Shown: one piece after another, positions 2,913 to 57,891 of the stretch
How the letters are laid out: each line of letters opens with the position of its first letter
Numbering within the stretch: position 1 is the first letter of the stretch
Assembly: GCF_013407955.1 (NCBI RefSeq)
Contig: NZ_JACCBU010000001.1
Span: 434,001-498,000 of the forward strand
DNA length: 64,000 nt
Direction: 5' to 3'
Source of the DNA: Microlunatus parietis
Lineage (GTDB): Bacteria > Actinomycetota > Actinomycetes > Propionibacteriales > Propionibacteriaceae
Notes under the pieces: model-generated
Database searches by the model: none
Seen by the model: only the letters and a program-made list of their open reading frames with translations
What the model was told of the DNA's origin: nothing
Translations under genes and position numbers: made by a program

Positions 2913-4232
2913 TCACTTCTTGAGCGCGTCGGTGGCGGCCCGAACCAACTGCTTCGCGGCTTCCCGGGGCGCCACCCGGCCGAACATGACCTCGGCGTCG
3001 ATCGACTCGACCGCGTCGGTGACGGCCGTCGTGCCGGCCGGGGCCGGCCGCGTCTCCACCAGATCCTCCTTGGTGAGGTCGCGAATGTACTCCACCGAAC
3101 GTTGATCATCCGGCCCGAGCGCGTCGAAGATCCCGTCCACCACGGCGGTACTGATCGGCACCCCGCGGGTCGGGCCCACCGCCAGGTTGGCCTCGACGTC
3201 GTTGATCATGAAGTTCAGCAGGTCCAGCGCACCGGCCTGGTTCGGGGCCTTGGCCCCGATCGACCAGTACATCGCGACGCCGATCTGCATCCCACGCCGG
3301 ACGGCCTGAGTCTCACCGGGGAACCGATTCAGCTGCAGGTCCCCGTCCACGGAATCGTTGTAGGCCTTGAGATTGTTGGTCGGGATCATCTGTGCGGCGA
3401 CCAGTCCGGCGGCGAGCGGCGACTGCGCGGAACCGCCACCGGCGGACTCGATGAACCCGGCCGGCGGCAGGCCGCCCTTCTCGCGCTGCTCGACCGACAT
3501 CGCCCACCACTCGACCAGGCTCTCCTCGCTGCCGCCGAAGCCGCCGTCGGTGGTGTACAGGTCCTCGCCGCGCTGACGCAGGAAGATGGCCAGTGCATCG
3601 GTCTCGCTGAACGGGAGGTTGATGCCGTACAGCTCCTTGTCGTCGCGGTCCTTCGCGGCCTTCGTGATCGACTGACTGAACGACCACAGGTCGTCCCAGG
3701 ACCACGTGTTCCCGTCCGGGATCTCGACCTCGTACCGCTCCGTCAGCGCGGTGTTGATCACGAAGCCGGAGGCGTTCAAGCCGGCCGGAATGCCGAACAG
3801 GCGATCACCGAACCTGGCCAGCGGAAGCTCCGGCGGTACGTCGTCGAGCTTGATCACGTCGAGATGCTGGTTCAGGTCCAGCAGGGCGCCGCGATCCACG
3901 TACTCGCTGATCCCGTCGCCGCGTTGATTGCAGAGATCGGGAACGTCCCCGGCGGCGAATCGCGTCGCCATCTTGTCCTGGTAGGGACCGCTGTCCTGAT
4001 ACTCCGTCTTGATCGTGACGCCCGGGTGCGCCTCCCGGTAGAGATCGAGCATCGCCTCGGTCAGCTTCGCCCGATTCGCATCGCCCCACCAGATCATGTT
4101 GATCGTCGATCCGGCGTCGGCACTGCCACCGCCCACGCCGAACCGGTTGCATCCCGTCAGCGCTGCCGCCGCCGTTCCCAGGCCCAGCCCGAGAACGGCC
4201 CGGCGACCGACACTCATTCCAGTCACATCCAT
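2913..4232 (-). CDS. ABC transporter sugar-binding lipoprotein (family 1)
   Basis: A 439-residue extracellular solute-binding protein. The N-terminus has an RR pair, a hydrophobic stretch and a lipobox (LTGC), so it is a lipid-anchored lipoprotein. The mature part has family 1 features: INMIWWGD, the long PGVTIKTEYQDSGPYQDKMA segment and GDVPDLCN. It would deliver a sugar or oligosaccharide to an ABC importer. No permease or ATPase gene lies next to it: the neighbours are a convergent SDR (15 bp away) and rarA. It is therefore an orphan binding protein, or it works with permeases elsewhere. A LacI-type operator lies upstream. ATG 4232 is used; the open frame extends upstream through the operator. 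Confidence 0.9.
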   Translation of the reverse strand: MDVTGMSVGRRAVLGLGLGTAAAALTGCNRFGVGGGSADAGSTINMIWWGDANRAKLTEAMLDLYREAHPGVTIKTEYQDSGPYQDKMATRFAAGDVPDLCNQRGDGISEYVDRGALLDLNQHLDVIKLDDVPPELPLARFGDRLFGIPAGLNASGFVINTALTERYEVEIPDGNTWSWDDLWSFSQSITKAAKDRDDKELYGINLPFSETDALAIFLRQRGEDLYTTDGGFGGSEESLVEWWAMSVEQREKGGLPPAGFIESAGGGSAQSPLAAGLVAAQMIPTNNLKAYNDSVDGDLQLNRFPGETQAVRRGMQIGVAMYWSIGAKAPNQAGALDLLNFMINDVEANLAVGPTRGVPISTAVVDGIFDALGPDDQRSVEYIRDLTKEDLVETRPAPAGTTAVTDAVESIDAEVMFGRVAPREAAKQLVRAATDALKK

Positions 4233-4285
4233 AACGAACCCTTCGCCTCGTCGCGACGTCACGCCCGGGCCCGCACCAGGGACTC

Positions 4286-4299
4286 GGAAACCGCTTTCT
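4286..4299. promoter_or_regulatory. LacI-family operator-like dyad (GGAAACCGCTTTCT)
   Basis: The near-palindrome GAAA-CCGC-TTTC with a central CG matches the general LacI-family operator pattern. It lies about 55 bp upstream of the sugar-binding protein start, as expected for sugar-responsive control. No lacI gene is visible in the window. Confidence 0.55.
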
Positions 4300-4505
4300 G
4301 ACCTAGCCCGGAGTCTCACACCAGCGGCTCAGCAGTGTCAAGAATCGCGGCCCCCGTGGTAATTGCAGCGCACCAGCGGTCGCGCGTCCGGCCGCAGTCC
4401 GCCGACCGCAGCCTCGTCGAGTGGCGTGGGCCCGGAACCGATTGCCAGCCTGCACCGGCGGCCGTCACCCGGGCGCCGCGCGGGCCCGCCGGGGTGGGCT
4501 CGGCG

Positions 4506-5885
4506 TCAGCCCTTCAACAGTTCGGTGATCCTGGCCAGCCGGTCGGCGACCTGCGCCTCGTACCCGTGGTTGGTCGGCTGGTAGTAGTCCGCGTCGGCCA
4601 GTTCGTCCGGCAGATACTGCTGGGCGGCGATCCCGTGCGGCGCGTCGTGCGCGTACTGGTAGCCCACGCCGTGGCCGTGTTGCTTGGCTCCCGCATAGTG
4701 GGCGTCCCGCAGATGAGGTGGGACCAGCCCGATCCGGCCCTCCCGAACGTCCGCCTGGGCGGCCCCGATCGCCAGCACGACGGCGTTGGACTTCGGTGCC
4801 AGCGCGCAGTGGATGACGGCGTGGGCCAGGGTGATCGCGGCCTCCGGAAACCCGATCAGCTGGACGGTCTGGGCGGCCGCGGTGGCCAGCGGCAGCGCGG
4901 TCGGGTCGGCCATCCCGATGTCCTCGGAGGCCAGGATCATGATCCTGCGGGCGATGAACCGCGGGTCCTCGCCGGCCTCGATCATCCGGGCCAGGTAGTG
5001 CAGTGAGGCGTTGACGTCGGACCCGCGCATCGACTTGATGAAGGCGCTGATCACGTCGTAGTGCTGATCACCGTCCCGGTCGTACCGCACCGCCGCCTTG
5101 TCCACGGCCCGTTCCACCGTCTCGGTGGTGATCGACGCGCTGTCCACCGCGGTCGCGCCGGCCGCCGATTCCTCCAGGTACGTCAGCGCCCGCCGGGCGT
5201 CGCCGCCGGCCAGACGGAGCAGGGTGGCCCGGGCCTCGTCGTCGAGTTCGTACGTCTTGCCGTCGGGGGTCCGCAGCCCGCGCTCGTCGGTGAGAGCCCG
5301 GGTCAGCAGCCCGGACAGGTCGTCGTCGGTCAGCGGCCGCAGGGTCAGCAGCAGTGACCGGGACAGCAGCGGCGAGATCACCGAGAAGCTCGGGTTCTCC
5401 GTGGTGGCGGCAATGAGAGTGACCAGCCGGTTTTCCACGGCCGGCAGCAGCACGTCCTGCTGGGCCTTGGAGAACCGGTGCACCTCGTCGACGAAGAGCA
5501 CGGTCTGGCGCCCCTGCCGCAGCTCGCTGCGGGCCTGGTCGAGCACGGCCCGGACGTCCTTGACCCCGGCCGTGACGGCGGAGATCTCGACGAACCGGCG
5601 GTCCGTCTGCCGCGACACCACACTCGCGATCGTCGTCTTGCCCACCCCCGGCGGGCCCCACAGGAACACCGACATCGGCTCGCCGGAGGCCAGCCGGCGC
5701 AGCGGCGATCCGGGCGCCAGCAGGTGGCCCTGGCCCACGATCTCCTCCAGGGTGCGCGGGCGCATCCGTACCGCCAACGGTGTGCCGGCATGGTCCACGG
5801 CGCCGAGACTGCCGCCGGTGGTCGCCTGGCCGCTCCGGCCCGACCGCGGCTCCGGCACCGGGTCGCCGAACAGGTCCTCACTCAC
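4506..5885 (-). CDS. rarA: Replication-associated recombination protein A (AAA+ ATPase)
   Basis: A 459-residue RarA/MgsA (WRNIP1-like) clamp-loader-type ATPase that acts at stalled forks. It shows the family start ([17 protein letters not shown]), Walker [10 protein letters not shown] near residue 70, Walker [10 protein letters not shown], sensor 1 AATTENPSF and the C-terminal tetramerisation region ([18 protein letters not shown]). Full length. Two GTG codons are possible; 5885 is preferred because a GATGAGG ribosome site sits 7 nt upstream of it, but only 1 nt from GTG 5891. In many actinobacteria rarA is near aspS and hisS; here it is 5 kb from aspS with accessory genes and an IS between. 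Confidence 0.95.
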
Positions 5886-5951
5886 GGACACACCTCATCA
5901 CACGGGACCGACGTTCGCCCGCCACCCTCGACCCAACTGACTTACGGTCGC

Positions 5952-5967
5952 TGCAGTGATGACTGCA
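5952..5967. promoter_or_regulatory. Perfect dyad TGCAGT-gatg-ACTGCA, likely operator
   Basis: A perfect 6-bp inverted repeat with a 4-bp spacer, 20 bp upstream of the GbsR/MarR-like regulator start. Position and symmetry fit autoregulation by that regulator. Confidence 0.5.
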
Positions 5968-5987
5968 ATGACTGGTACGTTAGCGGC

Positions 5988-6461
5988 ATGAACTCCCCGA
6001 CCGAGGCGGAACTCGACTTCACCGACGCCGTCGCCGCGTTCTTCGCCAGGGAGGGCATGCCCCTGATTCCCGGCCGGGTGATCGGCTGGCTGTTGATCAG
6101 TGACCCGCCGGAACAGGCGGCGGCCCAACTGGCCGAGGTGCTCCAGGCCAGCCGCAGCTCGATCAGCAGCGCAACCCGGATGCTCACCCCGAGCGGCCTC
6201 GTCGAGGGGATCCGCAAGCGGGGCGACCGGCAGGAGTACTTCCGGATCGCCGCGGACGGCTGGAGCCGGATGCTGATGCGCCGGTACGGCTACGCGACAG
6301 AGTTCCGCGATCTCCTCAGCCGCGGCCTGACCGTGCTGGACGACGCGCCGGCCGACCGTCGGGAGCGTCTGCAGAACGTCCATTCCCTCTACGGCTTCCT
6401 GGCCGACGAGCTGCCGGCCCTGCTGCAGCGGTGGGAGAACCTGAACAGGAGCGAACGATGA
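5988..6461 (+). CDS. GbsR/MarR-like winged-helix regulator
   Basis: A 157-residue winged-helix protein. The segment IPGRVIGWLLISDPPEQ followed by LAEVLQASRSSISSATRML is the GbsR-type HTH, and RKRGDRQEYFRI is the wing. The C-terminal half is helical and probably dimerises. Its stop overlaps the start of the downstream hydrolase (ATGA), so the two are translated together. This points to local control of the hydrolase by this regulator through the dyad at 5952-5967. Confidence 0.82.
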   Translation: MNSPTEAELDFTDAVAAFFAREGMPLIPGRVIGWLLISDPPEQAAAQLAEVLQASRSSISSATRMLTPSGLVEGIRKRGDRQEYFRIAADGWSRMLMRRYGYATEFRDLLSRGLTVLDDAPADRRERLQNVHSLYGFLADELPALLQRWENLNRSER

Positions 6462-25820: not shown

Positions 25821-25881
25821 CGACCGGTCACCAACGCAGCGACACGCCGCCAAAACACCTGCTTTTGTGCCCGGTCGGCGG
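25821..25881 (+). repeat. Type A dispersed palindromic element, copy 1
   Basis: About 61 bp with end arms CGACCGGTCAC and GTGCCCGGTCGG and a conserved core GCAGCGACACGCCG. It lies between the convergent dehalogenase-like gene and relA and abuts the relA stop. Other copies are at 46521-46580, 53917-53977 and 60300-60362. Confidence 0.88.
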
Positions 25882-46520: not shown

Positions 46521-46580
46521 GAGTAGTCACTTCTGCAGCGACACGCCGTCAGAACGCCTGCTTTTGTGACCGGTCAGCGG
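46521..46580 (+). repeat. Type A dispersed palindromic element, copy 2
   Basis: Left end GTAGTCACTTCTGCAGCGAC (the outer arm has drifted), core GCAGCGACACGCCG, right arm TTTTGTGACCGGTCAGCGG. Located in the 99-bp space between the oxidoreductase start and the yebC stop, in the same orientation as copy 1. Confidence 0.88.
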
Positions 46581-46594
46581 TAGGTGGTGGGGGT

Positions 46595-47353
46595 TCAGGC
46601 GTCGACGAGGGCTTCGTCGGGGGCGTCGAAGTTCGCGTAGACGTTCTGCACGTCGTCGGAATCCTCCAGCGCCTCGATGATCTTGAACACCTTCTCCGCC
46701 GTCGGCACGTCGATCTCCTGGGTGAACGACGGCACGAACGACACCTCGGCCGACTCGTAGTCGAGCCCGGCCTCCTGGACCGCGGTCCGGACCTGGACCA
46801 GGTCGTTCGGGTCGGTGATGATCTCGAAGTTCTCGCCGAGGTCGTTGACCTCCTCCGGCCCGGCCTCGAGGGTCGCCTCCAGCAGGTCGTCCTCGGAGAG
46901 CGTCTTGCCCTCCTGCTCCTTGCCGACGATGACCACGCCCTTGCGGTTGAACATCCGGGCGGTCGAGCCGACGTCGGCCATGGTGCCGCCGTTGCGGGTG
47001 ACCGCGACCCGGACGTCGGAGGCGGACCGGTTCCGGTTGTCGGTCAGGCACTCGATCAGCAGCGCCACGCCGGCCGGACCGTACGCCTCGTACATCAGCG
47101 TCTCGTAGTCCGTGCCGCCACCCTCGGCGCCCGAGCCGCGCTTGACGGCGCGGTCGATGTTGTCGTTCGGCACCGACGACTTCTTGGCCTTCTGGATCGC
47201 GTCGTACAACGTCGGGTTGCCGGCCGGGTCACCGCCGCCGACCCGGGCCGCCACCTCGATGTTCTTGATCAGCTTGGCGAACAGCTTGCCCCGCCGTGCA
47301 TCGATCACGGCCTTCTTGTGCTTGGTGGTTGCCCACTTGGAATGACCCGACAT
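46595..47353 (-). CDS. yebC: YebC/PmpR-family protein
   Basis: A 252-residue YebC-family protein: start [20 protein letters not shown], then [39 protein letters not shown], and the C-terminal [10 protein letters not shown]. Members were described as transcriptional regulators and recently as ribosome-associated factors for proline-rich stalling. In most actinobacteria it is directly upstream of ruvC; the two are 7.8 kb apart here. Full length. Confidence 0.95.
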
Positions 47354-47363
47354 GCAGCCGATC

Positions 47364-48410
47364 CTAATCCGAATCCGCGGTCGGCTGCTCGGGGCCGCGC
47401 TGCTCCAGCTTCGCGTACATGACGATCGTGCTGGACGCCGTGTAGCCGAGCTCCGGGTACAGGTTGATGCTGCCGGTCGGGCTGTCGGAGTCGACGCCGA
47501 TCCCGGCGCCGTCCAGGCCGGCCTCCGCGAACGACGTCATCGAGGCGGTCAGCAGGGCCCGGGCGATGCCACGGCCGCGGAACGCGTGCCGTACCCCGAG
47601 CCGTTCGGTCCAGCCCTCCGAGAAGCCCTGCTCCTCCCAGTCCTGCTCGTAGGCGGAGTTGATGGCGTAGCCGGCCACCTCGCTGGTCGCCGCGTCCAGC
47701 GCCACCCAGGACCAGCTCGGCCGGGCCACCGACCGGCTCAGCTGGTCCTCCCACGGCCCGCGCGCCACCGGCTGCGAACCCCAGTGGTCGGCGAACGCGT
47801 CGTTGTGGGCGAGCCGGACCGCCTCGGAAAGCTTCTTGCTGTACGGGACCAGCCGGATCCCGTCCGGAGCGGGGCCGGCCGGCGGCGGCACCGGCCGACC
47901 GTCGGGTCCCTTCTCGAACGTCAGGCCCATGTCGGCGAACCAGCGCACCGGTTCCAGCCCGGCCGCCCGGTAGAGGCGCTGGTGCACCTCCAGCTTCTCG
48001 TCGACGTACGCGGTCAGCTGCAGTGGTCCCATCGGCGGCGCGTAGGTCTCGTCGTACCACTCGCGGGCCCGGTCCAGTTGCCAGGCGAGCACCTGCCGGC
48101 CGATCGTCTGGCTCCGCCAGCCGGGATGCACGCCGCCGGTCAGGTAGACCCGGCGCGGGTCGACGTCGGTGGCCACCGGATGATTCCAGGCGTACGCGAC
48201 CGCCATGTCGCCGCCGTCCCGGCCGAGCAGGGTGTCGGCGCTCGGGCTGGTCTCGGCGCCGACGAACGCGTCCGCGAGGGCGTCCATGCTGTGCCGCTCG
48301 CTCGGCTCGTCGAGATGCTCGATCGCGGTCAGCAGCGCGCCCAGATCATCCAGGTCGGCCGGGGTGATGGGTTGCCAGGTCAGGCCGTCGATGGCCGGCT
48401 GGTCTACCAC
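47364..48410 (-). CDS. Tandem GNAT-domain acetyltransferase
   Basis: A 348-residue protein with two GNAT halves. The N-terminal half contains [19 protein letters not shown] and the C-terminal half [19 protein letters not shown] with a well-preserved acetyl-CoA loop. The layout recalls mycothiol synthase (MshD)-like duplicated GNATs, but the sequence does not single out MshD. GTG 48410 is chosen because aaggagcaca lies directly before it; the open frame extends 33 bp further. It reads toward yebC with a 10-bp gap. Confidence 0.83.
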
Positions 48411-48488
48411 TGTGCTCCTTACCTGCTCGGGGATGGGCGGCACGCGGGAAGCTGCACTCTTCGGCGAGTGGCCGTGCCGGGTCTCTGC

Positions 48489-49142
48489 TCAGCGTTGCCA
48501 GATCCGCCCGCCCGGGCGCGGACCGCCGAGCAGCGGCGGCTCGGTCTGCTGCCAGGTCCGGCGCCAGCCGCGGACGGCCGGTGCCTCGGCGGCGGCGGGA
48601 AGCCCGTCGGCTTGCCGTCGCCGTACGGTCCACCAGGTGGCGGCGTCCTCGGCGACCAGGGCGTCGATCGCCTCCACCGTCCGAGCGGCCAGCGCCAAGG
48701 GCGCCTCGCCGACCCGCGGTTCCAGCGGCGTCCCGTACCGGAGGACGACGCGGGGCCGGCCCGGGACCGGACGGATCCGGCCCGGCTCGATCGCCGCGAC
48801 ACTGCCCCGCACGCCGACCGGGATGATCGGCACCCGGAACCGTGCCGCGATCGCGGCGATCGCCTGGTCGGCGGTCGCGACGACGTTCCAGTCGCGGTCC
48901 AGCAGCCCGGGCGCCTGGCCGGCGTCGGCCACCGGCACGGTGCGGCGGCGCAGCGACCGCGGCAGCCCGGCCACCGCGAGCTGGCGATCCGCCCGGGATC
49001 CGTCGCCGACCAGGAACACCAGCGGGCCGGTCCGGTCGCGCAGTTCGGCGGACCCGTACGTCTCGAGGGCGAGGCCGGCCCGCAAGGCCGGCCGGAGCAG
49101 CGTCTGGTAGGCGACCTCGACGGCCCCGGCGACGCTGTTCAC
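48489..49142 (-). CDS. PlsC-like acyltransferase homologue lacking the HX4D motif
   Basis: A 217-residue protein resembling 1-acylglycerol-phosphate acyltransferases in overall order: hydrophobic start, LVFLVGDGSRADRQLAVAGL where PlsC proteins have the NHxSxxD motif, and FRVPIIPVGVRGS, which matches the conserved PlsC segment for the substrate site. The catalytic His is absent (GDGSRADRQ), so it may be inactive, use another mechanism, or belong to a diverged family. GTG 49142 overlaps the stop of the LarA-like gene (GTGA). Last gene of the priA to acyltransferase run. Confidence 0.6.
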   Translation of the reverse strand: MNSVAGAVEVAYQTLLRPALRAGLALETYGSAELRDRTGPLVFLVGDGSRADRQLAVAGLPRSLRRRTVPVADAGQAPGLLDRDWNVVATADQAIAAIAARFRVPIIPVGVRGSVAAIEPGRIRPVPGRPRVVLRYGTPLEPRVGEAPLALAARTVEAIDALVAEDAATWWTVRRRQADGLPAAAEAPAVRGWRRTWQQTEPPLLGGPRPGGRIWQR

Positions 49143-50668
49143 GTGACCTCCGCGAGAAGCCGCGGCGGACTGTGCAGGTAGCTGATCGTCGGGTCCGAAC
49201 CGACCGACGCGGCGGTCATCTCCAGCGCGTCGGCCAGGCTGGATGCGGCCCGGAAGCCCATCCGGGCCACCGTGCTCCGGTCGCCGCCGACCCAGACCAC
49301 GTCGGACAGCCGGGCGGTCGCCGCGGTCACCTCGGCCCAGGTCAGGAACGGATGGACGCCGTGGAACGCGTGGCTGGTCCGGTACAGGTGCCGGTACCAC
49401 TCGTCGGTGGCGAACCGGCCGAACGCCTCCGGGGTCACGCCGGTCGGCAGCACCTCGTCGAAGAAGTCGACGTAGGACGGGTGGTGCAGCGGCGAGAACT
49501 CGCTCCGCGCCGGGTGGTAGAGGATCACCGCGCCGCCGTCGCGGACCACCGGCTTGCCGGTCGCCGCGCCGAGCGTGCCGACCAGCCCGGACCAGGCGGC
49601 CAGGATCGGGTTGGTCACCGAGCCGAGGCTGCCCGGTCCGGCCTGGGGCACGCCGACCACGGCGACGTCCGCCTGGCCGCCGACCTCGACCAACTGCTGT
49701 GCCCGTACGGTCTCGGCCGCCGCGTCCGCCACCAGGGCCGGGTCGCCGGCGGCCACGCTCACCACGCCGTACCCGCCGGGCAGGTTGCCGGCCAGGCTGC
49801 GGCGGAGCTTGGCCGGGACCAGGGAGAGTCCCTGCCGGAGCCCGTACGCGCGGGCCTGTTCGCGCAGGCTCCATTCCCACTCGCGCTTGCCGAGAAATTC
49901 CACCGGTGCGCCGAACGTGCGGTTGTCCAGGACCGCGTCGACGGCGAACGCGGTCACCGCGCCGCCGACCAGCCGGGCGACCGACTCGCCGTCCGGGCCG
50001 GTCAGGCCGGTGATCGTCGCGGTCGAGCCGAGGCTGGCGGCCAGCCAGTGACCGAGGCTGCCCTCCGGGATGTCGAACGCCGGCGCCGGCTGCCCGGCGA
50101 CCCGGACCACGACCACCAGGTCGGACTCGACGACCCGCCGGTCGATCCGTACCGTCAGCGTGTCGGACACCGATCCGATGGCGGTCAGCCGGTTCTCGTC
50201 CTCGGCGTCGTGGTTGCGCAACAGCCCGTCGCCGACGAAGGAGCGGTACACCCGCTCGCCGACCAGGCGGCGCAGTTCGGCGCCGGTCAGCCGGCGCCGC
50301 AGGCCGGTGCCGACGATCACCTCGACGTCGTCGACGCCGGCGTCGGCCGCCCGGCTGAGCACCTCCTCGACGATCACGCCGCGGACATCGGGATCCGGCA
50401 TCGACGGCACCGGGACGCTGAGGTCCTCGACGACGACGGTGAGCCTGCTGTCCGGCCGGAGCCGGGCCGCCAGCGGATCACCGCCGAGCGGCTGGTCCAG
50501 CGTCCGGCCGACCTCGCCCCGGACGTCGGCCAGGGTGGGCAGCGGATCGGGTGGGTAGACCACCTTGGCGCCGAGGGGGAACAACTGACGCACCACAGTG
50601 TCGCCGGAGTGGACGACGAGCGGCGGCGTGCGTTCGTCGACCTCGAGCACGAAGCCGGGACGGGCCAT
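49139..50668 (-). CDS. LarA-like (DUF2088) protein
   Basis: A 509-residue protein related to the N-terminal domain of nickel-pincer lactate racemase LarA. Recognisable are VVVEDLSVPVPSMPD (in place of the DxTRP motif), VIVGTGLRRRLTGAELRRL (in place of ATGxHRPxT, so the usual His is Arg) and LLRNHDAED. The C-terminal half has GGYGVVSVAAGDPALV and a GG-rich region. Loss of these residues makes lactate racemase activity doubtful. It lies 58 bp after the reductase-HAD fusion and overlaps the acyltransferase-like gene, so the three probably act together. Confidence 0.7.
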   Translation of the reverse strand: MARPGFVLEVDERTPPLVVHSGDTVVRQLFPLGAKVVYPPDPLPTLADVRGEVGRTLDQPLGGDPLAARLRPDSRLTVVVEDLSVPVPSMPDPDVRGVIVEEVLSRAADAGVDDVEVIVGTGLRRRLTGAELRRLVGERVYRSFVGDGLLRNHDAEDENRLTAIGSVSDTLTVRIDRRVVESDLVVVVRVAGQPAPAFDIPEGSLGHWLAASLGSTATITGLTGPDGESVARLVGGAVTAFAVDAVLDNRTFGAPVEFLGKREWEWSLREQARAYGLRQGLSLVPAKLRRSLAGNLPGGYGVVSVAAGDPALVADAAAETVRAQQLVEVGGQADVAVVGVPQAGPGSLGSVTNPILAAWSGLVGTLGAATGKPVVRDGGAVILYHPARSEFSPLHHPSYVDFFDEVLPTGVTPEAFGRFATDEWYRHLYRTSHAFHGVHPFLTWAEVTAATARLSDVVWVGGDRSTVARMGFRAASSLADALEMTAASVGSDPTISYLHSPPRLLAEVT

Positions 50669-50726
50669 CTCTAACGTTCTCCCCTGTAGTTCGTCTGTTC
50701 CATGATCGGTTGCGGTACGCGAGCCG

Positions 50727-53069
50727 TCACTGCTGTGGCCCGGGCAGCGTCCAGCGCGAGTTCTCGGGCCTGATCCTCCATTCCACCACCGACCACTGGT
50801 TCGCGGCAGCAGCGCGCATCAACGCGATGTCGGGTGTCACCGCGACCGCGTTGCCGACCGCGGTCAGCATCGGCAGGTCGGAGTGGGAGTCGGCGTAGGC
50901 GTAGCTCTTGGCCAGGTCGATCCCGTGCGTGTCGGCGTAGTGCCGCAGCCAGGCCGGCCGGGACTCGCCGACCAGCGGCGGGCCGGTCAGGAAGCCGGTG
51001 CAGCGGCCGTCGGCGTCGGTGGCCAGCTCGGCGGCGACGATCTCGTCGAACAGCGGCCGCAGCGGCCGGGTCAGCGGCGCCACCACGCCGGTGATCAGGA
51101 TCGTCGTGTGCCCGGCGGCCCGGTGTGCCCGGACCCGCCGTACCGCCTCGGGCGAGAGCCGGCTCAGGATGTGCGGGGCCAGGTCGTGGTCGATGTGCTC
51201 CTCGAGCGCGGCCAGGTCGGCGCCGGCGTAGCGGCGGTACACGGCGCGGAGGAAGCTGCCGCGGTCCCGGCGCTCGGTACGCAGGTAGGCCGGCAGCCGG
51301 CGCAGCACCCGACCGACCTCGGCCAGCTGGGCCGACCGAGACAACTCCGGCAACCGGGTCCACAGATACTGCTCGATCACGTTCGTCGACATGATCGTGC
51401 CGTCCAGGTCGAACACGGCCAGCGCCGACGAGCCCGCGGTGTCCTTGGACAGGTCGCGCATCGTCGTCGCCCGGTTGCCGCGCTTGCGGCGCAGCGCGTC
51501 CATCCGGCGCACCGGGGCCGTGATCGACGGGCAGTGCACCTCTTCCAGGTACGTGGTCCAGTCGAACACCGACGTGTCGAAGGCGAACGAGTCCAGGTCG
51601 TCGGCGTGCAGCGCACCGTGCAGGGAGAGCGTGTTGTCGTCGACGAAGTGCAACTCGGACTGGGCGTACTCGTTGTAGAGCGACAGGTACTTGCGCAGGA
51701 AGTCGAGCCGGCCGCGGGTCCGGTCCAGGCCCTTGGCCATGGTCCGGGTCCGGTTCGACCGCGGGGCGAGCGACAGCACCCGGTCGGCGACCTTGTGCGC
51801 GCGTTCGGAGGTGGACAGCAGCCGCTCCACCGACGCCGCGCCCGGGAACTTCCACTGCGGCAGGTGGGCCGCGCCGCGGGCGCCGCCGACGAACGGGTGC
51901 GCGGTGAAGTAGGCCCGGACGTGGCCGTACAGGTCCTTGAAGGTGAGCGCGTTCCGGGCGCCGGACGAGACGTGGTAGAACTCCGGCTCGCCGACCTCGG
52001 GCTCGGTCGCGGCGACCGCGATGATCGCGTTGACCACGTGATCGCAGGGCACGATGTCGACGACGGAGTCCGGTGAGGCCGGGAACTCGGGCAGCTCGCC
52101 GCGGCCGTACGCGAGGATCAGCGGCTCCGCCATCTTGAAGCCCTCGATCCAGCCCGGGTACGGGTGCAGCCAACTCGACTCGACGATCGACGGGCGGACC
52201 ACGGAGACCCGGATGCCGGCCGCGTGATCGGCGACGGCCCGCTCCCCCAGCGCCTTGGTGAACGTGTAGACGTCGGTCCAGCCCAGCGAACGGGCCCGCT
52301 CCGTACCGGCCTTGACCAGTTCGGCGGTGACCCATTCCTTGCGGCGCCGCTCGGTGTCCTCCGCGGTGGTCAGGAAGCCCGCCGCGCGGTGCTCCCGCTC
52401 GGCCTCCTTGCGCAGCTTGGCCAGCCGGTCCGAGGTCCGCGACTCGGCCTCGATCAGATCCCGCATCGCCAGCCCGGCCTCGGTCTCGGCCCGGTAGTCG
52501 ATGTCGTGCGCGTGCTGCGCCTCCGGGATCACGCCACGCCGCCGGCCGGCCGTGTAGGCGGTGGAGATGTGCACGTAGTGCGGCAGTTTGGTCAGCGTGC
52601 CGTCGGGACCGGTGTTGGCCTCGATCAGCCGGTCGATCAGCGCCGTCGTGCCGAGCACGTTGGTCGTGAAGGCCTGGTCGATCGGAGGGTCGAACGACAC
52701 GTCGCCGGCGGAGTGGATCACCACATCGATGCCGGCCGGCAGTTCCGGCACGTTCGGCAGGTCGCCCTCGACGACGATCACCCGGGCGTCCAGCAACTCC
52801 TCGGCACCGCCGGCCGCATCGCGCAGGTCGCTGAAGATCTTCTTCTTGAGCAGCGTCAGGATCCGGTCCCGGCCGCTGGCCGACCGCTTCCGCCGGACCA
52901 GCACGGCCGCCTTCGTGTCCGGCAGCTCGGTGAGGATCTTCCAGAGCAGGTGCTCGCCGATGAAGCCGGTGACGCCGGTGACCAGCACCGTCATGCCGGC
53001 CAGCCGCTCCCGCAGCCGTAGCCCGCCGAGCGGGGACGGGCCCGCGGCGGTCTCGGTGAGCTGGGTCAT
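50727..53069 (-). CDS. Fusion: fatty-acyl-reductase-type SDR plus HAD-IB phosphatase
   Basis: A 780-residue two-domain protein. Residues about 25-390 form an extended SDR of the NAD_binding_4 (male-sterility/fatty acyl-CoA reductase) type: [37 protein letters not shown] and YTFTKALGE (Tyr/Lys). About 400-520 is a linker rich in Arg/Asp with an FAR-C-like part. About 540-755 is a HAD-IB domain: [20 protein letters not shown] and [11 protein letters not shown]. The combination suggests reduction of an acyl thioester and removal of a phosphate in a lipid pathway. ATG 53069 overlaps the priA stop (ATGA). Confidence 0.82.
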
Positions 53070-53851
53070 GAAACCGGTCCGCTCGCCCTCGCGCCCTGAG
53101 CCGCACCCTCCGCGCCCTGAGCCTGTCGAAGGGCCTCGGGCAGCGTGAAGTTGCCCACGTACAGGGCGGTGCCGATGATCGCGCCCTCGACACCCTCGGA
53201 CACCAGTCCGGTCAGCGCGGTGATGTCGTCCAGGCTGGAGATGCCGCCGCTGGCGATCACCGCCGCTTCGGTACGGGAGCAGACGTCCCGCAACAGGTCG
53301 AGGTTGGGCCCGGCCAGCATGCCGTCGGAGGCGACGTCGGTGACCACGTAACGGGCGCAGCCGGCGGCGTTCAGCCGGTCCAGCGTCTCGTACAGCTCGC
53401 CGCCCTCCTCGGTCCAGCCGCGCGCGGCCAGCCGGGTGCCGCGGACGTCCAGGCCGATCGCGATCTGCTCGCCGTGGTCGGCGATGATCTCGGTGCACCA
53501 GTCCGGCCGCTCCAGCGCCGCGGTGCCGATGTTGACCCGGGCGCAGCCGGTGGAGAGGGCACGGGTCAGGCTCGCGTCGTCCCGGATCCCGCCGGACAGC
53601 TCGACCTTCAGGTTCGGATGATCATCGGCGAGGCCGGCGATCACGTCGGCGATCAGCGCCGCGTTGTCGCCGCGGCCGAACGCCGCGTCAAGATCGACCA
53701 GGTGGATCCACTCGGCCCCCGCCTCGGCCCACCGCCGCGCCGCCGCCTTCGGCTCCCCGAACCGCTTCTCCGTGCCCGCCTTGCCCTGCACGAGTTGCAC
53801 GGCCTGTCCTCCGGCCACGTCGACCGCCGGTAGCAGCACCAAAGAATCCAC
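53066..53851 (-). CDS. priA: Phosphoribosyl isomerase A (HisA/TrpF type)
   Basis: A 261-residue TIM barrel of the actinobacterial PriA group: [58 protein letters not shown] (second catalytic Asp) and [11 protein letters not shown]. PriA isomerises both the histidine and the tryptophan intermediates. No other his or trp gene is adjacent. The last 20 or so residues ([16 protein letters not shown]) are not conserved; they are encoded by GAGCCTGTCGAAG-type repeats at 53095-53132. The stop overlaps the start of the reductase-HAD fusion. Confidence 0.92.
53095..53132 (+). repeat. Double CCCTGAGCCTGTCGAAGGGC repeat inside the priA 3' end
   Basis: A partial unit (CCCTGAGCC) followed by a complete CCCTGAGCCTGTCGAAGGGC. 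The insertion extends priA beyond its normal end and places the start of the next gene after it, without breaking the ATGA overlap. Confidence 0.75.
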
Positions 53852-53916
53852 GCGCCAGACCCTATCTTCCCGCTCACCCTGATCAGCAATCCGTCCACCC
53901 TGAACCGACCCAGTAT

Positions 53917-53977
53917 CCGCCGACCGGTCACAAAAGAAGCCGTTCTGGCGGCGTGTCGCTGCACAAGTGACCGGTCG
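53917..53977 (-). repeat. Type A dispersed palindromic element, copy 3
   Basis: Reverse orientation. Ends CCGCCGACCGGTCAC and AGTGACCGGTCG, core CGGCGTGTCGCTGC. It lies 66 bp upstream of priA, in its promoter region. Confidence 0.88.
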
Positions 53978-54040
53978 ATGCGCTCGGGGCGGACGCAAGG
54001 GACGCAATCCCACGTGCGCGGAGCGCCGGGGAAGTCGTAG

Positions 54041-54165
54041 CCGGGGCGCACGCCGGTACCGGGGGTGCGACTTCGGCCTGCCCACCACTGCGGATCGTGC
54101 GGAGCTCGCGGCCGGGGCGCACGCCGGTGCCGGGGGTGACCTCGGCCCACCACCACTACCGATCG
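54041..54165. repeat. 71-bp tandem duplication
   Basis: CCGGGGCGCACGCCGGT starts at 54041 and again at 54112. Similarity continues through GGGGGTG, CTCGGCC, CCACCAC and GATCGTG. The second copy runs straight into type B element copy 3. No gene is seen in 53980-54165. Confidence 0.8.
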
Positions 54166-54244
54166 TGTCGCGATTCCTCCTCAGGTCGAGCACTGCCGCG
54201 TGGCAATCGCCCGGAGTGCTCCGTCCGTGGAGGAATAGCGACAG
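54166..54244. repeat. Type B inverted-repeat element, copy 3
   Basis: TGTCGCGATTCCTCCTCAGG on the left, CCGTGGAGGAATAGCGACAG on the right, core CCGCGTGGCAATCGC. Best preserved together with copy 1. Confidence 0.85.
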
Positions 54245-54316
54245 CGACCGACCCGAACTCACCCGTCGTACGACTCCCGGTGCCAACCTCGACACCACAG
54301 AGGCCCGGGAGCACTC

Positions 54317-55571: not shown

Positions 55572-56582
55572 TCAGCAGGCCGCGGCGGTCAGCCCGTGGG
55601 TCAGGCGTGCGCTCGACGCCACGTGGTTGAGGAACGTGCTCGAGGCCGCACTGGTCTTCGTCGTGTACCAGTCCTGGTTGATGTCGCAGACGACCAGGTC
55701 CGCCGCGGTGTCGGCCAGCACCACCGGCAGCGTGTGCACGACCGTCGACGGGAAGCTGATCACGTGCCGGCCGATCGGGCCCATCCGCGCGGTCAGCTCG
55801 ATCGGCAGCTCCGGCCGGACCACCTGGATGCCGAGCGCAGTGATCCGGTCCAGCTTCGCCGGCTCTTCCTTGCGGTGCGCGAAATAGCGGTCCACCTTGT
55901 AGCGCTTCGCCAGGCTGGCGACACCGGCCAGATAGGCCTCCTCGTCCACCACCCCGGTCTCGACGAGGGAGGTGCCGACCAGGTCGCCGGTGATCTTGAC
56001 CGTCGGCTGCCCGTATTGACTGCGGGTCCAGCCGAAGTCGTTCTTGATCACCGGCAGCTCGACCTCCAGCGGCAGGCAGCTGAACAAGCTGATCTTGCTG
56101 CCGGTCGCGGCGGTCATCCGGCGCCGGGCCAGCGAGGCGATCTGCCTTCGGTGCGGCGCGGTCTTGGTCGTGTGCCAGCGGACCAGCTCCTCGCCCGCCG
56201 CCCAGAGCCGGGCGAACTCCATCGTGGCCGTACCGTCGTCGACGATCACCACCTCGGGCACCCGGGTCACCCCGAGCACCACCTGGATCACGCCCGAGAA
56301 CGGGTCGCCGATCACCAGCCGGTCGATCCCGATCAGCTCACCGGCCATCGCCCGCACGGTCCGCGCGGTCGACGCCGCGCCCAGCCGCGGCTCGTGCCAC
56401 CGGACGACGTGCCGCAGGTTACGGGCGATCTCCGTCATCCGCCGCAGTTGCAGCCGCGACTGTTCCGGGCGCGGCGCCAGCACGACCGTGGTCAGGTCGT
56501 CTCGCTGTACGTCGTGCCGGTGGGCCCATTCCAGGACGTTGAGCAACTGGGCCGGGCTCTCCACCAGAGCGAGCGTCTTCAT
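55572..56582 (-). CDS. Polysialyltransferase-like / capsule-type glycosyltransferase
   Basis: A 336-residue protein starting MKTLALVESPAQLLNVLEW, which is the typical start of the alpha-2,8-polysialyltransferase-like family found beside NeuB. The acidic motif VIVDDGTATMEF matches the conserved (D/E)(D/E)G motif, and FPSTVVHTLP near the end matches the S/T motif. An HR-containing segment (RYFAHRKEEP) corresponds to the HP region, less clearly. It probably transfers a nonulosonic acid or related sugar during wall-glycopolymer synthesis. 35 bp after neuB in the same direction. Confidence 0.75.
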   Translation of the reverse strand: MKTLALVESPAQLLNVLEWAHRHDVQRDDLTTVVLAPRPEQSRLQLRRMTEIARNLRHVVRWHEPRLGAASTARTVRAMAGELIGIDRLVIGDPFSGVIQVVLGVTRVPEVVIVDDGTATMEFARLWAAGEELVRWHTTKTAPHRRQIASLARRRMTAATGSKISLFSCLPLEVELPVIKNDFGWTRSQYGQPTVKITGDLVGTSLVETGVVDEEAYLAGVASLAKRYKVDRYFAHRKEEPAKLDRITALGIQVVRPELPIELTARMGPIGRHVISFPSTVVHTLPVVLADTAADLVVCDINQDWYTTKTSAASSTFLNHVASSARLTHGLTAAAC

Positions 56583-56617
56583 CCCGCCTTCCTCACCCCG
56601 CAGCAACGACCGGTCGG

Positions 56618-57556
56618 TCAGGCACCGACCAGCTGCGGCGACTCCTGCTCGGCCAGCACGCCGGGGACCCGGCGCAGCTTCTTCATCGCGGCGAGTTCGC
56701 CCTCGTACACCTTCTTCACCCCGTCGCCGAGCGACTCGGAGATGATCCGGATGTCGCGGACCAGCCGCTGCAGGCCCTGCGGCTCGACGGACGCGGCCTG
56801 GTCGGAGCCCCACATCGCACGATCGAGCGTGATGTGCCGCTCCACGAAGACGGCGCCCAGCGCGACGGCGGCCAGCGTGGTCTGCAGGCCGGTCTCGTGG
56901 CCGGAGTAGCCGATCGGGACGTTCGGGAATTCGGACTGCAGGGTGTGGATCATCCGCAGGTTGAGTTCCTCGGCCTTCGCCGGGTACGTGCTCGTCGCGT
57001 GCAGCAGCACGATGTTCTCACTGCCCAGCACCTCGACGGCGTGCCGGATCTGCTTCGGGGTGGACATGCCGGTGGAGAGGATGATCGTCTTGCCGCTGGC
57101 CCGCAGCCGCCGCAGCAGCTCGTCGTCGGTCAGCGAGGCCGAGGCGACCTTGTGTGCTGGCACGTCGAACTGATCAAGGAAATCGACCGACTCGACGTCC
57201 CACGGCGAGGCGAACCAGTGGATCCCGCGCGCCTTGGCGTGGGCGTCGATCTCCTGGTACTCCTCGACACCGAACTCGACCCGGTGCCGGTAGTCGATGT
57301 ACTTCATCCGGCCCCAGGGGGTGTCCCGCTCGATGTCCCACTGATCCCGCGGGGTGCAGACCTCGGGCGTCCGCTTCTGGAACTTGACCGCGTCGCAGCC
57401 GGCGTCGGCCGCGATGTCGATCAAGGCCTTGGCGTTGTCGAGATCACCGTTGTGGTTGATGCCGATCTCCCCGGTGACGTAGACCGGGTGATCGATTCCG
57501 ACCTCGTGATCACCGATCGAACGGGTCGGCGAGGTGAACGAAACGTTGGCTGTCAT
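56618..57556 (-). CDS. neuB: NeuB-family nonulosonic acid synthase without SAF domain
   Basis: A 312-residue aldolase-type synthase that condenses PEP with a hexose to make a nine-carbon acid (Neu5Ac, Kdn or legionaminate type). TIM-barrel signatures: VTGEIGINHNGDLDNAKALI, CDAVKFQKR, KVASASLTDDELL, LSTGMST, LHATSTYPA, IGYSGHETG and VERHITLDRAMWGSDQAAS. The family normally has a C-terminal SAF/antifreeze domain of about 60 residues reaching 340-350; here the chain ends soon after ESLGDGVKKVYEGE. The SAF domain is therefore missing, or supplied by another gene. Confidence 0.9.
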   Translation of the reverse strand: MTANVSFTSPTRSIGDHEVGIDHPVYVTGEIGINHNGDLDNAKALIDIAADAGCDAVKFQKRTPEVCTPRDQWDIERDTPWGRMKYIDYRHRVEFGVEEYQEIDAHAKARGIHWFASPWDVESVDFLDQFDVPAHKVASASLTDDELLRRLRASGKTIILSTGMSTPKQIRHAVEVLGSENIVLLHATSTYPAKAEELNLRMIHTLQSEFPNVPIGYSGHETGLQTTLAAVALGAVFVERHITLDRAMWGSDQAASVEPQGLQRLVRDIRIISESLGDGVKKVYEGELAAMKKLRRVPGVLAEQESPQLVGA

Positions 57557-57891
57557 GACAGTGAAGCTAGGAACCGTACGTGGCGAGATCGCACCGCCGA
57601 ATTGAACGTCCAACGAACAAACCACGACATCTGGTGTCACTCGATGGGACCACCGTGAACGGGCGGTGAACCGCCTTCGAACACTCACTGACGCCGGCCC
57701 GGTGGGCGCGACGCGAGCTTGTGCGCCGCCCGATGCTTCACTGGGAGCCGGGGCGTGGGGTTACGGTCGGATGACAGCAACCGCCGTTCACCCGTGGTCC
57801 GTCGAGTGTTCACCTGGCTCCCGAATGATGACGGACCGATGCCGTGGCCCCGGCCGCAGCAGCCGACCAGTCTGCGACAACGAGGAGGACG
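57557..57891. promoter_or_regulatory. 335-bp divergent promoter region with long inverted repeat
   Basis: Separates neuB from the divergent glycosyltransferase gene. An inverted repeat of about 20 bp lies at 57647-57666 and 57781-57800 (GGACCACCGTGAACGGGCGG facing CCGCCGTTCACCCGTGGTCC, two indels). A smaller pair GAACACTC / GAGTGTTC is at 57679-57686 and 57804-57811, and GGCGGT-ga-ACCGCC at 57662-57675. No gene is seen. The symmetry suggests coordinated control of both directions. Confidence 0.5.

Follow-up and report, generated by a model that had tools for sequence, protein, structure and literature searches.

Among the closest described relatives of the locus are homologues of LarA. In the accessible part of the survey by Desguin et al. 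(2020; PMC7583248), no activity was seen for the Frankia LarAH14 in any of seven assays of small 2-hydroxyacids, group 16 was set aside as probably not using the nickel-pincer cofactor (NPN), and a lipid link for the LarAH14, 15 and 16 groups was not seen. The name LarAH15 was given in 2024, according to the accessible part of that report, to a D-gluconate 2-epimerase of Phytophthora (PMC11770544), which may not be the same "15". For single-His LarA homologues of Streptococcus plurextorum and Blautia wexlerae, carbohydrate metabolism was suggested from gene context (PMC12611868).

Gene run behind priA

The window, the whole analysed stretch of 64,000 nucleotides from Microlunatus parietis, contained a close-packed run on the minus strand. 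The first gene was priA (53066..53851, GTG start), encoding a hisA-trpF bifunctional isomerase that scored 343.3 bits against TIGR01919 (cut-off 306.45). Its TGA overlapped, as ATGA, the ATG of a gene for a 780-residue fusion (50727..53069) of a fatty-acyl-CoA reductase and a HAD-IB phosphatase (FAR-HAD), the conserved core of the cassette described below. The gene for a LarA-like protein (49139..50668; 509 residues) started 58 bp past the fusion end, with a possible ribosome-binding site, AGGGGAG, in front, and was joined by a GTGA overlap to the gene for a PlsC-type acyltransferase derivative (48489..49142; 217 residues, GTG start). The four genes, their coordinates and their overlaps were thus as the sequence-only reading had given them. 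The run extended beyond 48489, with a GNAT-family acetyltransferase gene (47364..48443, minus strand) 45 bp on and yebC (46595..47353, minus strand) another 10 bp on. The former is a syntenic neighbour rather than a cassette member, and yebC marks the end of the run and the locus boundary. Promoter and terminator scans of 48300–54300 gave no match, which is a weak test for a high-GC actinobacterium. A defence system was considered and rejected, as PADLOC returned no match for the three proteins submitted.

The reductase part of the fusion (residues 1–520; 51510..53069, minus strand) matched PF07993 (NAD_binding_4) with 163.9 bits, and the fatty acyl-CoA reductase 7eoz aligned with the fusion over 508 residues (E 4.9e-53). 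The TGxTGFxG and YxxxK motifs of fatty acyl-CoA reductases were present, and the nucleotide-binding motif, YxxxK and two HAD motifs (DLDGT and ADSHSDLP) were intact. The HAD part (about residues 550–747; 50829..51422, minus strand) scored 107.5 bits against TIGR01490 (cut-off 98.3), and the HAD domain was also matched in Pfam. The C-terminal Sterile domain reached 32.2 bits against a cut-off of 35.4. Among the cassette proteins of M. parietis, FAR-HAD appears to be the sole one with recognisable full active sites.

The LarA-like protein contained the Lar_N domain (PF09861; 79.5 bits, cut-off 23.3), and its predicted structure had a mean pLDDT of 89.1, with a low-confidence segment at residues 194–202. 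Alignment bore out the earlier claim that the usual DxTRP and ATGxHRP residues are missing. The DxTRP position reads VEDLSVP and the catalytic-His motif reads GTGLRRR, in which Arg occupies the position of the catalytic His (H108 of LarA). The Lys that binds NPN (K184) and the Ni-ligand His (H200) were also absent, and the GGHKSV...HHN stretch of relatives was deleted or replaced in the NPN loop (about residues 191–226; 49991..50098, minus strand). R75 of LarA showed no conservation even in cassette LarAs outside Propionibacteriaceae.

In the PlsC-like protein, the reported absence of HX4D was likewise verified by alignment, NHSSHLD being replaced by GDGSRAD. Also lost were FPEG, some 70 residues at the N terminus and one internal segment of roughly 25 residues. 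Neither this protein nor its M. speluncae orthologue matched Pfam, and all four intact cassette PlsCs tested matched PF01553. On its sequence, the PlsC-like protein of the window is probably not catalytic.

The cassette and its reduction in Propionibacteriaceae

A cassette of FAR-HAD, zinc alcohol dehydrogenase, LarAH14/15/16 and PlsC, in this order, is present across Actinomycetota. The sequence-only reading depended on the three families of the run staying together in related genomes, and they did: of the 60 loci fetched first, 58 had the fusion upstream of the LarA-like gene in the same orientation, at a spacing of up to 3.7 kb in 56 of the 58 and of up to 6 kb, with genes between, in two. 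Named loci with this order came from Frankia, Nocardioides, Kribbella, Actinomadura and Phytohabitans. Genes are dense in actinobacterial genomes and overlaps are common, so that unrelated genes might be packed together by chance, but this explanation is refuted by the conserved order and retains practically no weight. Of 135 loci showing both FAR and HAD, 132 had them in one open reading frame; in L135, L189 and L191 their best matches were in different frames.

Outside Propionibacteriaceae, the dehydrogenase was kept in 96 of 98 loci (L109 truly lacks it and L163 begins at a contig end), the catalytic His and the NPN Lys and His in 97, and both PlsC motifs in 91. PlsC was missing from five of these loci, including L150, which ends after 1 base, and L185, which has about 1.6 kb left; L130 gave no match in the PlsC motif search. 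The counts for the outside and inside groups include duplicate loci on the same contigs (L122 and L061, L124 and L063, L177 and L095, L180 and L094) and two contigs of one MAG (L164 and L173), and exclude L119 and L120, which have a divergent LarA and no cassette. FAR-HAD was found in none of 41 outside genomes without a cassette LarA, three of which had a divergent homologue. Among the non-cassette neighbours in 95 outside loci, named by eye except for ten proteins run against Pfam, no partner hinted at the product beyond the lar genes, priA/hisF and, in 7 loci, an acyl-CoA-ligase-like family. In agreement with the earlier statement that no pathway with this combination had been described, none was found in the literature searched, among the matches listed, nor was the cassette itself; Table S1 of PMC7583248, which gives contexts per LarA group, may note some neighbours.

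Within Propionibacteriaceae, the full NPN motif was lost in all 41 loci, with the Lys position not occupied by Lys in any, and this loss was a single change on a quick tree. Both PlsC motifs were kept in 7 of 35 PlsC homologues; six loci had no PlsC, three of which (L070, L074 and L086) end within 600 bases. The window genome had no cassette-type dehydrogenase. A relocated dehydrogenase was rejected, because the best match in the same genome was 35% identical over residues 48–380 and represents a generic relative. Since the motifs were intact in 97 and 91 of the 98 outside loci, the absences in the window are losses from a fuller cassette with an alcohol dehydrogenase. The earlier proposal that the missing residues reflect the design of a variant pathway was therefore abandoned; motif counts, alignment and tree indicate lineage-specific losses. 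On this sequence evidence, the window run is a derived, pared-down form of the Actinomycetota cassette.

The reduction goes further in other relatives. Of 19 Propionibacteriaceae genomes that lacked a cassette LarA, 11 kept FAR-HAD, and eight of these 11 kept the order priA-fusion-yebC, where neither larA nor plsC was matched in between. The GNAT gene preceded yebC in three of the eight, and in four (L209, L211, L212 and L214) 1.2–1.4 kb of unassigned sequence separated the fusion from the next recognised gene. In this comparison, the matches of G041 and G011 were flagged for an in-frame TGA.

The overlap with priA, a coupling at first called unexplained, stands as first read. Of the 41 Propionibacteriaceae loci, 39 had priA beside the cassette, the remaining two being short contigs, and so did 15 of 98 outside loci (13 Kribbella-titled, one Streptomyces and one Actinopolymorpha). 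The priA-fusion pair persists in the eight relatives without larA or plsC, and the coupling therefore need not be functional. It looks like lineage-specific synteny, which suffices as an account, and a functional link was rejected. A role of the cassette in histidine or tryptophan metabolism, as the reason for the coupling, is very improbable. The gene overlap, a second hisA/hisF-type match after the cassette in the Kribbella loci seen, and the resemblance of the HAD part to HAD-IB histidinol phosphatases would fit such a role, but the HAD part reached 73 bits against two histidinol-phosphatase models with cut-offs of 280 and 400 bits, priA is rare beside the outside cassettes, and a fatty-acyl-CoA reductase and PlsC would be out of place in that metabolism.

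Cofactor genes and selection

Outside Propionibacteriaceae, the cassette was linked to NPN synthesis. LarC and LarE were present in 27 of 30 outside genomes carrying a cassette-type LarA, which was the only Lar_N protein in 18 of the 27, and the flanking sequence fetched with the loci contained larB, larC and larE together in 11 of the 98 outside loci and in none of the 41 Propionibacteriaceae loci. Both LarC and LarE were absent from 14 of 28 Propionibacteriaceae genomes. All 14 with LarC had another Lar_N protein, and 12 of the 14 without LarC had the cassette Lar_N only. The window genome had one Lar_N protein, no LarC (TIGR00299, PF01969) and no LarE over the cut-off. Cassette context was confirmed for 24 of these 30 genomes outside the family and for 27 of the 28 within it, the rest being counted by the LarA match alone. 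The pairing was not strict, since G409 and G440 had an intact NPN motif yet no LarC or LarE over the cut-off, and G088 and G120 (LarC and LarE) and G017 (LarC) had no Lar_N match.

When compared with M. speluncae, the dN/dS values were 0.18 for the LarA-like protein, 0.19 for the fusion and 0.65 for the PlsC-like protein, and that of priA was similar to the LarA-like value. All dN/dS values were computed with an in-house Nei-Gojobori script from stretches that had been aligned or matched by tblastn. The LarA-like protein is under purifying selection. The PlsC-like protein is fast-evolving in this species pair, with most of its constraint gone. Within Propionibacteriaceae, LarA dN/dS rose to 0.44 in one pair; among hand-picked pairs, LarA was less conserved than FAR in all 12 further inside pairs and more conserved in all six outside pairs. 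Motif-less PlsC-like proteins of other genera had dN/dS values of 0.06–0.30 in four pairs which, together with the motifs kept in 7 of 35 homologues, indicates that motif loss is not simple decay.

These values bear on the possibility that the larA-like and plsC-like genes are both becoming pseudogenes, carried along while FAR-HAD alone matters. The fast evolution and motif loss of the window PlsC-like protein, and the eight relatives that kept priA and the fusion with no match for either gene at the same locus, agree with it. This explanation is nevertheless unlikely, as the LarA-like reading frame is open, full length, confidently modelled and as constrained as priA and the fusion, and motif-less PlsC-like proteins are constrained in several pairs. 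Furthermore, of the 182 LarA columns conserved outside, 57 were retained by 90% or more of the 39 Propionibacteriaceae sequences.

The residues kept in the family included EWEW (263–266), His385-Pro386, Asp401, Asp422, Trp424, Tyr425, Leu428, Tyr429, Arg430 and Asp480-Ala481-Leu482-Glu483. Such a set, under purifying selection, might belong to an enzyme that acts on the same lipid substrate by another chemistry, one that does without NPN. However, the same residues are also kept outside and so may serve the fold or substrate binding only, and polar columns conserved outside are gone inside (window positions 191, 207, 222, 223, 314, 364, 442 and 449). We consider an NPN-free enzyme of this kind doubtful.

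Proposed function and comparison with known systems

The cassette likely encodes a lipid pathway. Of the multi-step lipid conversion first proposed for the run, the grouping of the families is supported and the enzyme types suit such a pathway; the missing residues as its design are not supported. In the full cassette, FAR would reduce a fatty-acyl thioester to an alcohol, HAD-IB would take phosphate off an intermediate, the dehydrogenase and a single-His NPN LarA would perform hydride chemistry at a carbon that bears a hydroxyl, and PlsC would acylate a free hydroxyl. The product would be a hydroxylated lipid or one derived from a fatty alcohol.

For the window, the reading we favour, with some confidence, is a Propionibacteriaceae descendant of the cassette behind priA in which FAR-HAD is active, the LarA-like protein is nickel-free but kept, and the PlsC-like protein is motif-less. 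FAR-HAD most likely would still yield an alcohol or aldehyde product. The LarA-like protein would have given up the nickel-pincer cofactor and act as a substrate-binding or partner protein of FAR-HAD, or as a cofactor-free enzyme, and the PlsC-like protein lacks its catalytic motifs and is, in this species pair, largely free of constraint. Against this reading stand the inactivity of the Frankia LarAH14 in the published assays, the published view that group 16 probably does not use NPN, the unconserved R75, the loose pairing with LarC and LarE, the constraint on motif-less PlsC-like proteins in other genera and the LarA dN/dS of 0.44 in one inside pair. More tentatively, LarAH14/15/16 could be the nickel-pincer enzyme dedicated to a lipid pathway of Actinomycetota that has not been described. 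It would then be the first NPN enzyme with a lipid as its substrate, and its nickel-free Propionibacteriaceae descendant would go on working with FAR-HAD while under purifying selection. The LarAH14/15/16 group has the look of an orphan among nickel-pincer enzymes, for which the cassette context gives a testable substrate class, lipids. In Propionibacteriaceae, the series that leads from cassettes lacking the cofactor site to a fusion left by itself at that locus offers a natural experiment in cofactor loss with enzyme retention.

In the animal ether-lipid pathway, too, a fatty-acyl reductase works together with an acyltransferase, a dehydrogenase and a phosphatase. The cassette resembles it in enzyme types only, and no alkylglycerone-phosphate synthase was noticed in the cassette. 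The window fusion shares YxxxK and an RPSxxESxWxxPxPGW stretch with 7eoz, but differs in its fused HAD-IB phosphatase; its match to the Sterile domain falls short of the cut-off. Apart from its deletions, the PlsC-like protein could be aligned with the intact cassette orthologues of the PlsC/AGPAT family (PF01553), from which it and the M. speluncae orthologue differ in lacking the Pfam match and the catalytic motifs.

The outside cassette LarAs belong to LarAH14/15/16, with 890–928 bits against NF052592 in all seven tested, whereas the window protein scored 493 bits, under the 740 cut-off, and has lost the catalytic His and the NPN Lys and His. The single-His LarA homologues 9q2u, 9q3k and 9q3j were nearest by sequence profile (E 3e-41) and by fold, where Foldseek placed 9q3k and 9q3j closest to the LarA-like model (9q3k, E 1.7e-29). 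As in these homologues, the position of the second catalytic His is not His in the outside cassette LarAs, where an Asn aligns with it. The cassette LarAs differ from them in adjoining lipid-type enzymes, and the window protein differs further in having lost the cofactor site too.

Gene run and encoded proteins

The run lay on the minus strand and was composed of priA (53851–53066), a fusion of 780 residues (53069–50727) joining a fatty-acyl-CoA reductase (FAR) to a HAD-IB phosphatase (HAD), a LarA-like gene (509 residues, 50668–49139), and a PlsC-like acyltransferase homologue (217 residues, 49142–48489). The ATGA, 58-bp, and GTGA junctions reported in the sequence-only reading matched these coordinates. 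A GNAT gene and yebC followed, with gaps of 45 and 10 bp. The genome was one 7.24-Mb contig, and the nearest named match at the locus, Microlunatus speluncae, shared 85% identity in the LarA-like protein (among the best 80 of 483 relatives). From this and further named matches, the family of the window ('the family' below) is taken to be Propionibacteriaceae. Upstream of the run, a 413-residue reading frame (55572–56813), which had no Pfam match at E 0.1, overlapped the gene of a NeuB-family synthase (56618–57688).

The FAR part of the fusion aligned with 7eoz over 508 residues, the HAD part exceeded the TIGR01490 cut-off for HAD-IB phosphatases, and the four motifs searched for were all intact. 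The HAD domain (50829–51422), behind the histidine gene priA, also resembled models of HAD-IB histidinol phosphatases, although its 73 bits fell well short of the cut-off. The LarA-like protein matched Lar_N in Pfam and, among NCBIfam models, best matched NF052592 (LarAH14/15/16), scoring 493 bits where the cut-off is 740. Its model (pLDDT 89.1) was nearest to 9q3k and 9q3j; the LarA fold was kept entire, and the former Lys-loop stretch was the sole segment with a pLDDT below 50. The PlsC-like protein, without a Pfam match, had lost NHX4D as previously noted, together with FPEG, ~70 N-terminal residues, and one internal stretch.

Two versions of the cassette

At E 0.001, the LarA-like query matched 64 of the 147 genomes from its own family and 121 of the 296 from the phylum, divergent homologues among them; 49 of the 147 matched at E 1e-40 or better (counted from the listing). 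A class-wide search with a profile of proteins from outside Propionibacteriaceae was positive in 53 of 296 genomes, several of them divergent. A set of named loci comprised the best 80 of 483 relatives and came from Frankia, Nocardioides, Kribbella, Actinopolymorpha, Actinomadura, Phytohabitans, and others. Among 60 longer loci, drawn from the LarA-like matches by score and contig extent, 58 had the fusion on the strand of the LarA-like gene and upstream of it, so the two genes stay together in relatives; the remaining two were divergent LarA homologues. FAR and HAD shared one reading frame in 132 of the 135 loci where both were detected. At one locus, L098, the gene after the cassette (3690–5348) encoded a PAP2 and diacylglycerol-kinase fusion, a lipid hint from a single genome.

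The 139 loci, counting the window and including some duplicates and short contigs, were split into 41 belonging to the family and 98 from elsewhere. In the latter, the fusion and LarA genes were separated by an alcohol dehydrogenase gene of the zinc type (ADH_N and ADH_zinc_N in the Kribbella copy). The dehydrogenase was present in 96/98 of these outside loci, the nickel-pincer nucleotide (NPN)/catalytic motif of LarA was intact in 97/98, and PlsC carried both motifs in 91/98 and had no match in 5. Inside the family, the NPN motif was retained in 0/41, the dehydrogenase in 2/41 (one MAG counted twice), and both PlsC motifs in 7/41, with no PlsC match in 6. The NF052592 cut-off was passed by all seven outside LarAs tested (890–928 bits) and failed by those of the window, M. 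speluncae, L122 (a family locus), and L189 (493–667 bits).

L189, a Pseudonocardiales MAG locus retaining the dehydrogenase, was the single outside exception for the NPN motif. It was sister to the family clade on a quick LarA tree of 100 rows, in which the program flagged long branches; therefore, one loss of the motif would explain all cases. L189 is possibly an intermediate stage. The only family MAG with the dehydrogenase (L061, 5818–6999, on the contig of L122) had GISGSD, compared with GICGSD in the outside copies examined. The Cys of GICGSD, a likely zinc ligand, is thus gone there too.

In the pair formed by the window and M. speluncae, the dN/dS values were as follows: priA, 0.20; fusion, 0.19; LarA-like gene, 0.18; PlsC-like gene, 0.65; GNAT, 0.23; and yebC, 0.09. 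LarA was less conserved than FAR in 12/12 other family pairs, whereas it was more conserved in 6/6 outside pairs; with a LarA dN/dS of 0.09–0.44 among inside pairs, these values indicate that LarA is under relaxed, though still real, constraint. Among the 182 columns of LarA that are conserved outside, 57 were unchanged in 90% or more of 39 sequences from the family; the columns of the catalytic His, of the Lys, and of the His pair were among those lost. The PlsC-like rate was uneven, fast in the window pair and 0.06–0.30 in four other pairs also lacking both motifs (among L081–L084, L085/L087, and L089/L100), which hints that, in some genera, the protein may also serve a non-catalytic purpose.

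Fusion without LarA and the position of priA

A fusion search of 70 genomes at E 1e-40 found the fusion in 10/10 cassette genomes, in 11/19 family genomes without the cassette LarA, and in 0/41 such genomes outside the family. The order priA, fusion, (GNAT in three), yebC was found in eight of the 11. Neither LarA nor PlsC had a match between fusion and yebC in these eight, and in four of them 1.2–1.4 kb there carried no recognised gene. We infer that larA and plsC were lost at these eight loci, rather than never present. In the other three (fusions 42–44% identical), neither priA nor yebC was found nearby. These results make FAR–HAD the core and priA a neighbour. In Kribbella, priA was also upstream of the cassette, and a second hisA/hisF-like match downstream is probably hisF.

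The priA-to-yebC run was flanked by two oppositely oriented copies of a dispersed ~57-bp repeat (cores at 46540–46573, plus strand, and 53924–53957, minus strand; a more divergent copy at 25841, plus strand). The 53924 copy and the fetched locus L207 terminated in the inverted repeat CGACCGGTCAC...GTGACCGGTCG. The core had 50 copies in the genome with at most two mismatches (26 forward, 24 reverse; the 25841 copy not counted), and the reversed control had none.

Nickel-pincer genes and comparison with known LarA proteins

With residue roles from PMC7583248 and PMC12611868 (sections 2.1 and 2.5), alignment of the outside profile with LarA (6c1w, 8ezf) showed that the catalytic His, NPN Lys, and Ni-ligand His were all retained; the second catalytic His was replaced by Asn, and Arg75 was not conserved. 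In the fetched flanks, larB, larC, and larE occurred together at 11/98 outside loci (L096 of genome G435, 3124–5099 and 5231–6052, where larB and larC overlap; L101–L103, L154, L157, L166, L187, L191, L192, and L197) and 0/41 inside loci. Genome-wide, LarC and LarE accompanied cassette-type LarA in 27/30 outside genomes, the exceptions being G359 (84% complete), G409, and G440. Cassette-type LarA was the only Lar_N protein in 18 of these 27, and is therefore the only apparent NPN user there.

Inside the family, 14/28 cassette genomes had LarC and LarE, all 14 with another Lar_N protein. Twelve of the 14 without them carried the cassette Lar_N protein only; of the other two, G119 added LarA fragments and G006 three LarAs. 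The cassette-free G088 and G120 (LarC and LarE) and G017 (LarC) had no Lar_N match; the pairing of Lar_N proteins with NPN synthesis genes is not strict. In the window genome, with its single Lar_N protein, LarC was absent by two models and LarE had no match above the cut-off.

From the enzyme types, FAR would reduce an acyl thioester to an alcohol, HAD would dephosphorylate, the dehydrogenase and single-His NPN LarA would carry out hydride chemistry at a hydroxyl carbon, and PlsC would O-acylate. In the window genome, intact sites remain for the FAR and HAD steps only. The view that the pathway is undescribed was supported within a largely open-access literature: among the papers listed on fatty-acyl reductases in combination with lactate racemase, Kribbella/Nocardioides, ether lipids, or Microlunatus, top-ranked papers only for two of these combinations, none described it. 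Of the two papers with both 'nickel-pincer nucleotide' and 'lipid', one had 'lipid' in a reference title only and the other was on nickel toxicology.

In PMC7583248, Frankia LarAH14 was inactive in seven assays, and other hydride reactions were proposed for LarAs without the catalytic residues. The authors of the single-His LarA study suggested one-way processing of D-substrates for their own enzymes (PMC12611868, section 2.5), and the same may apply to the cassette LarA.
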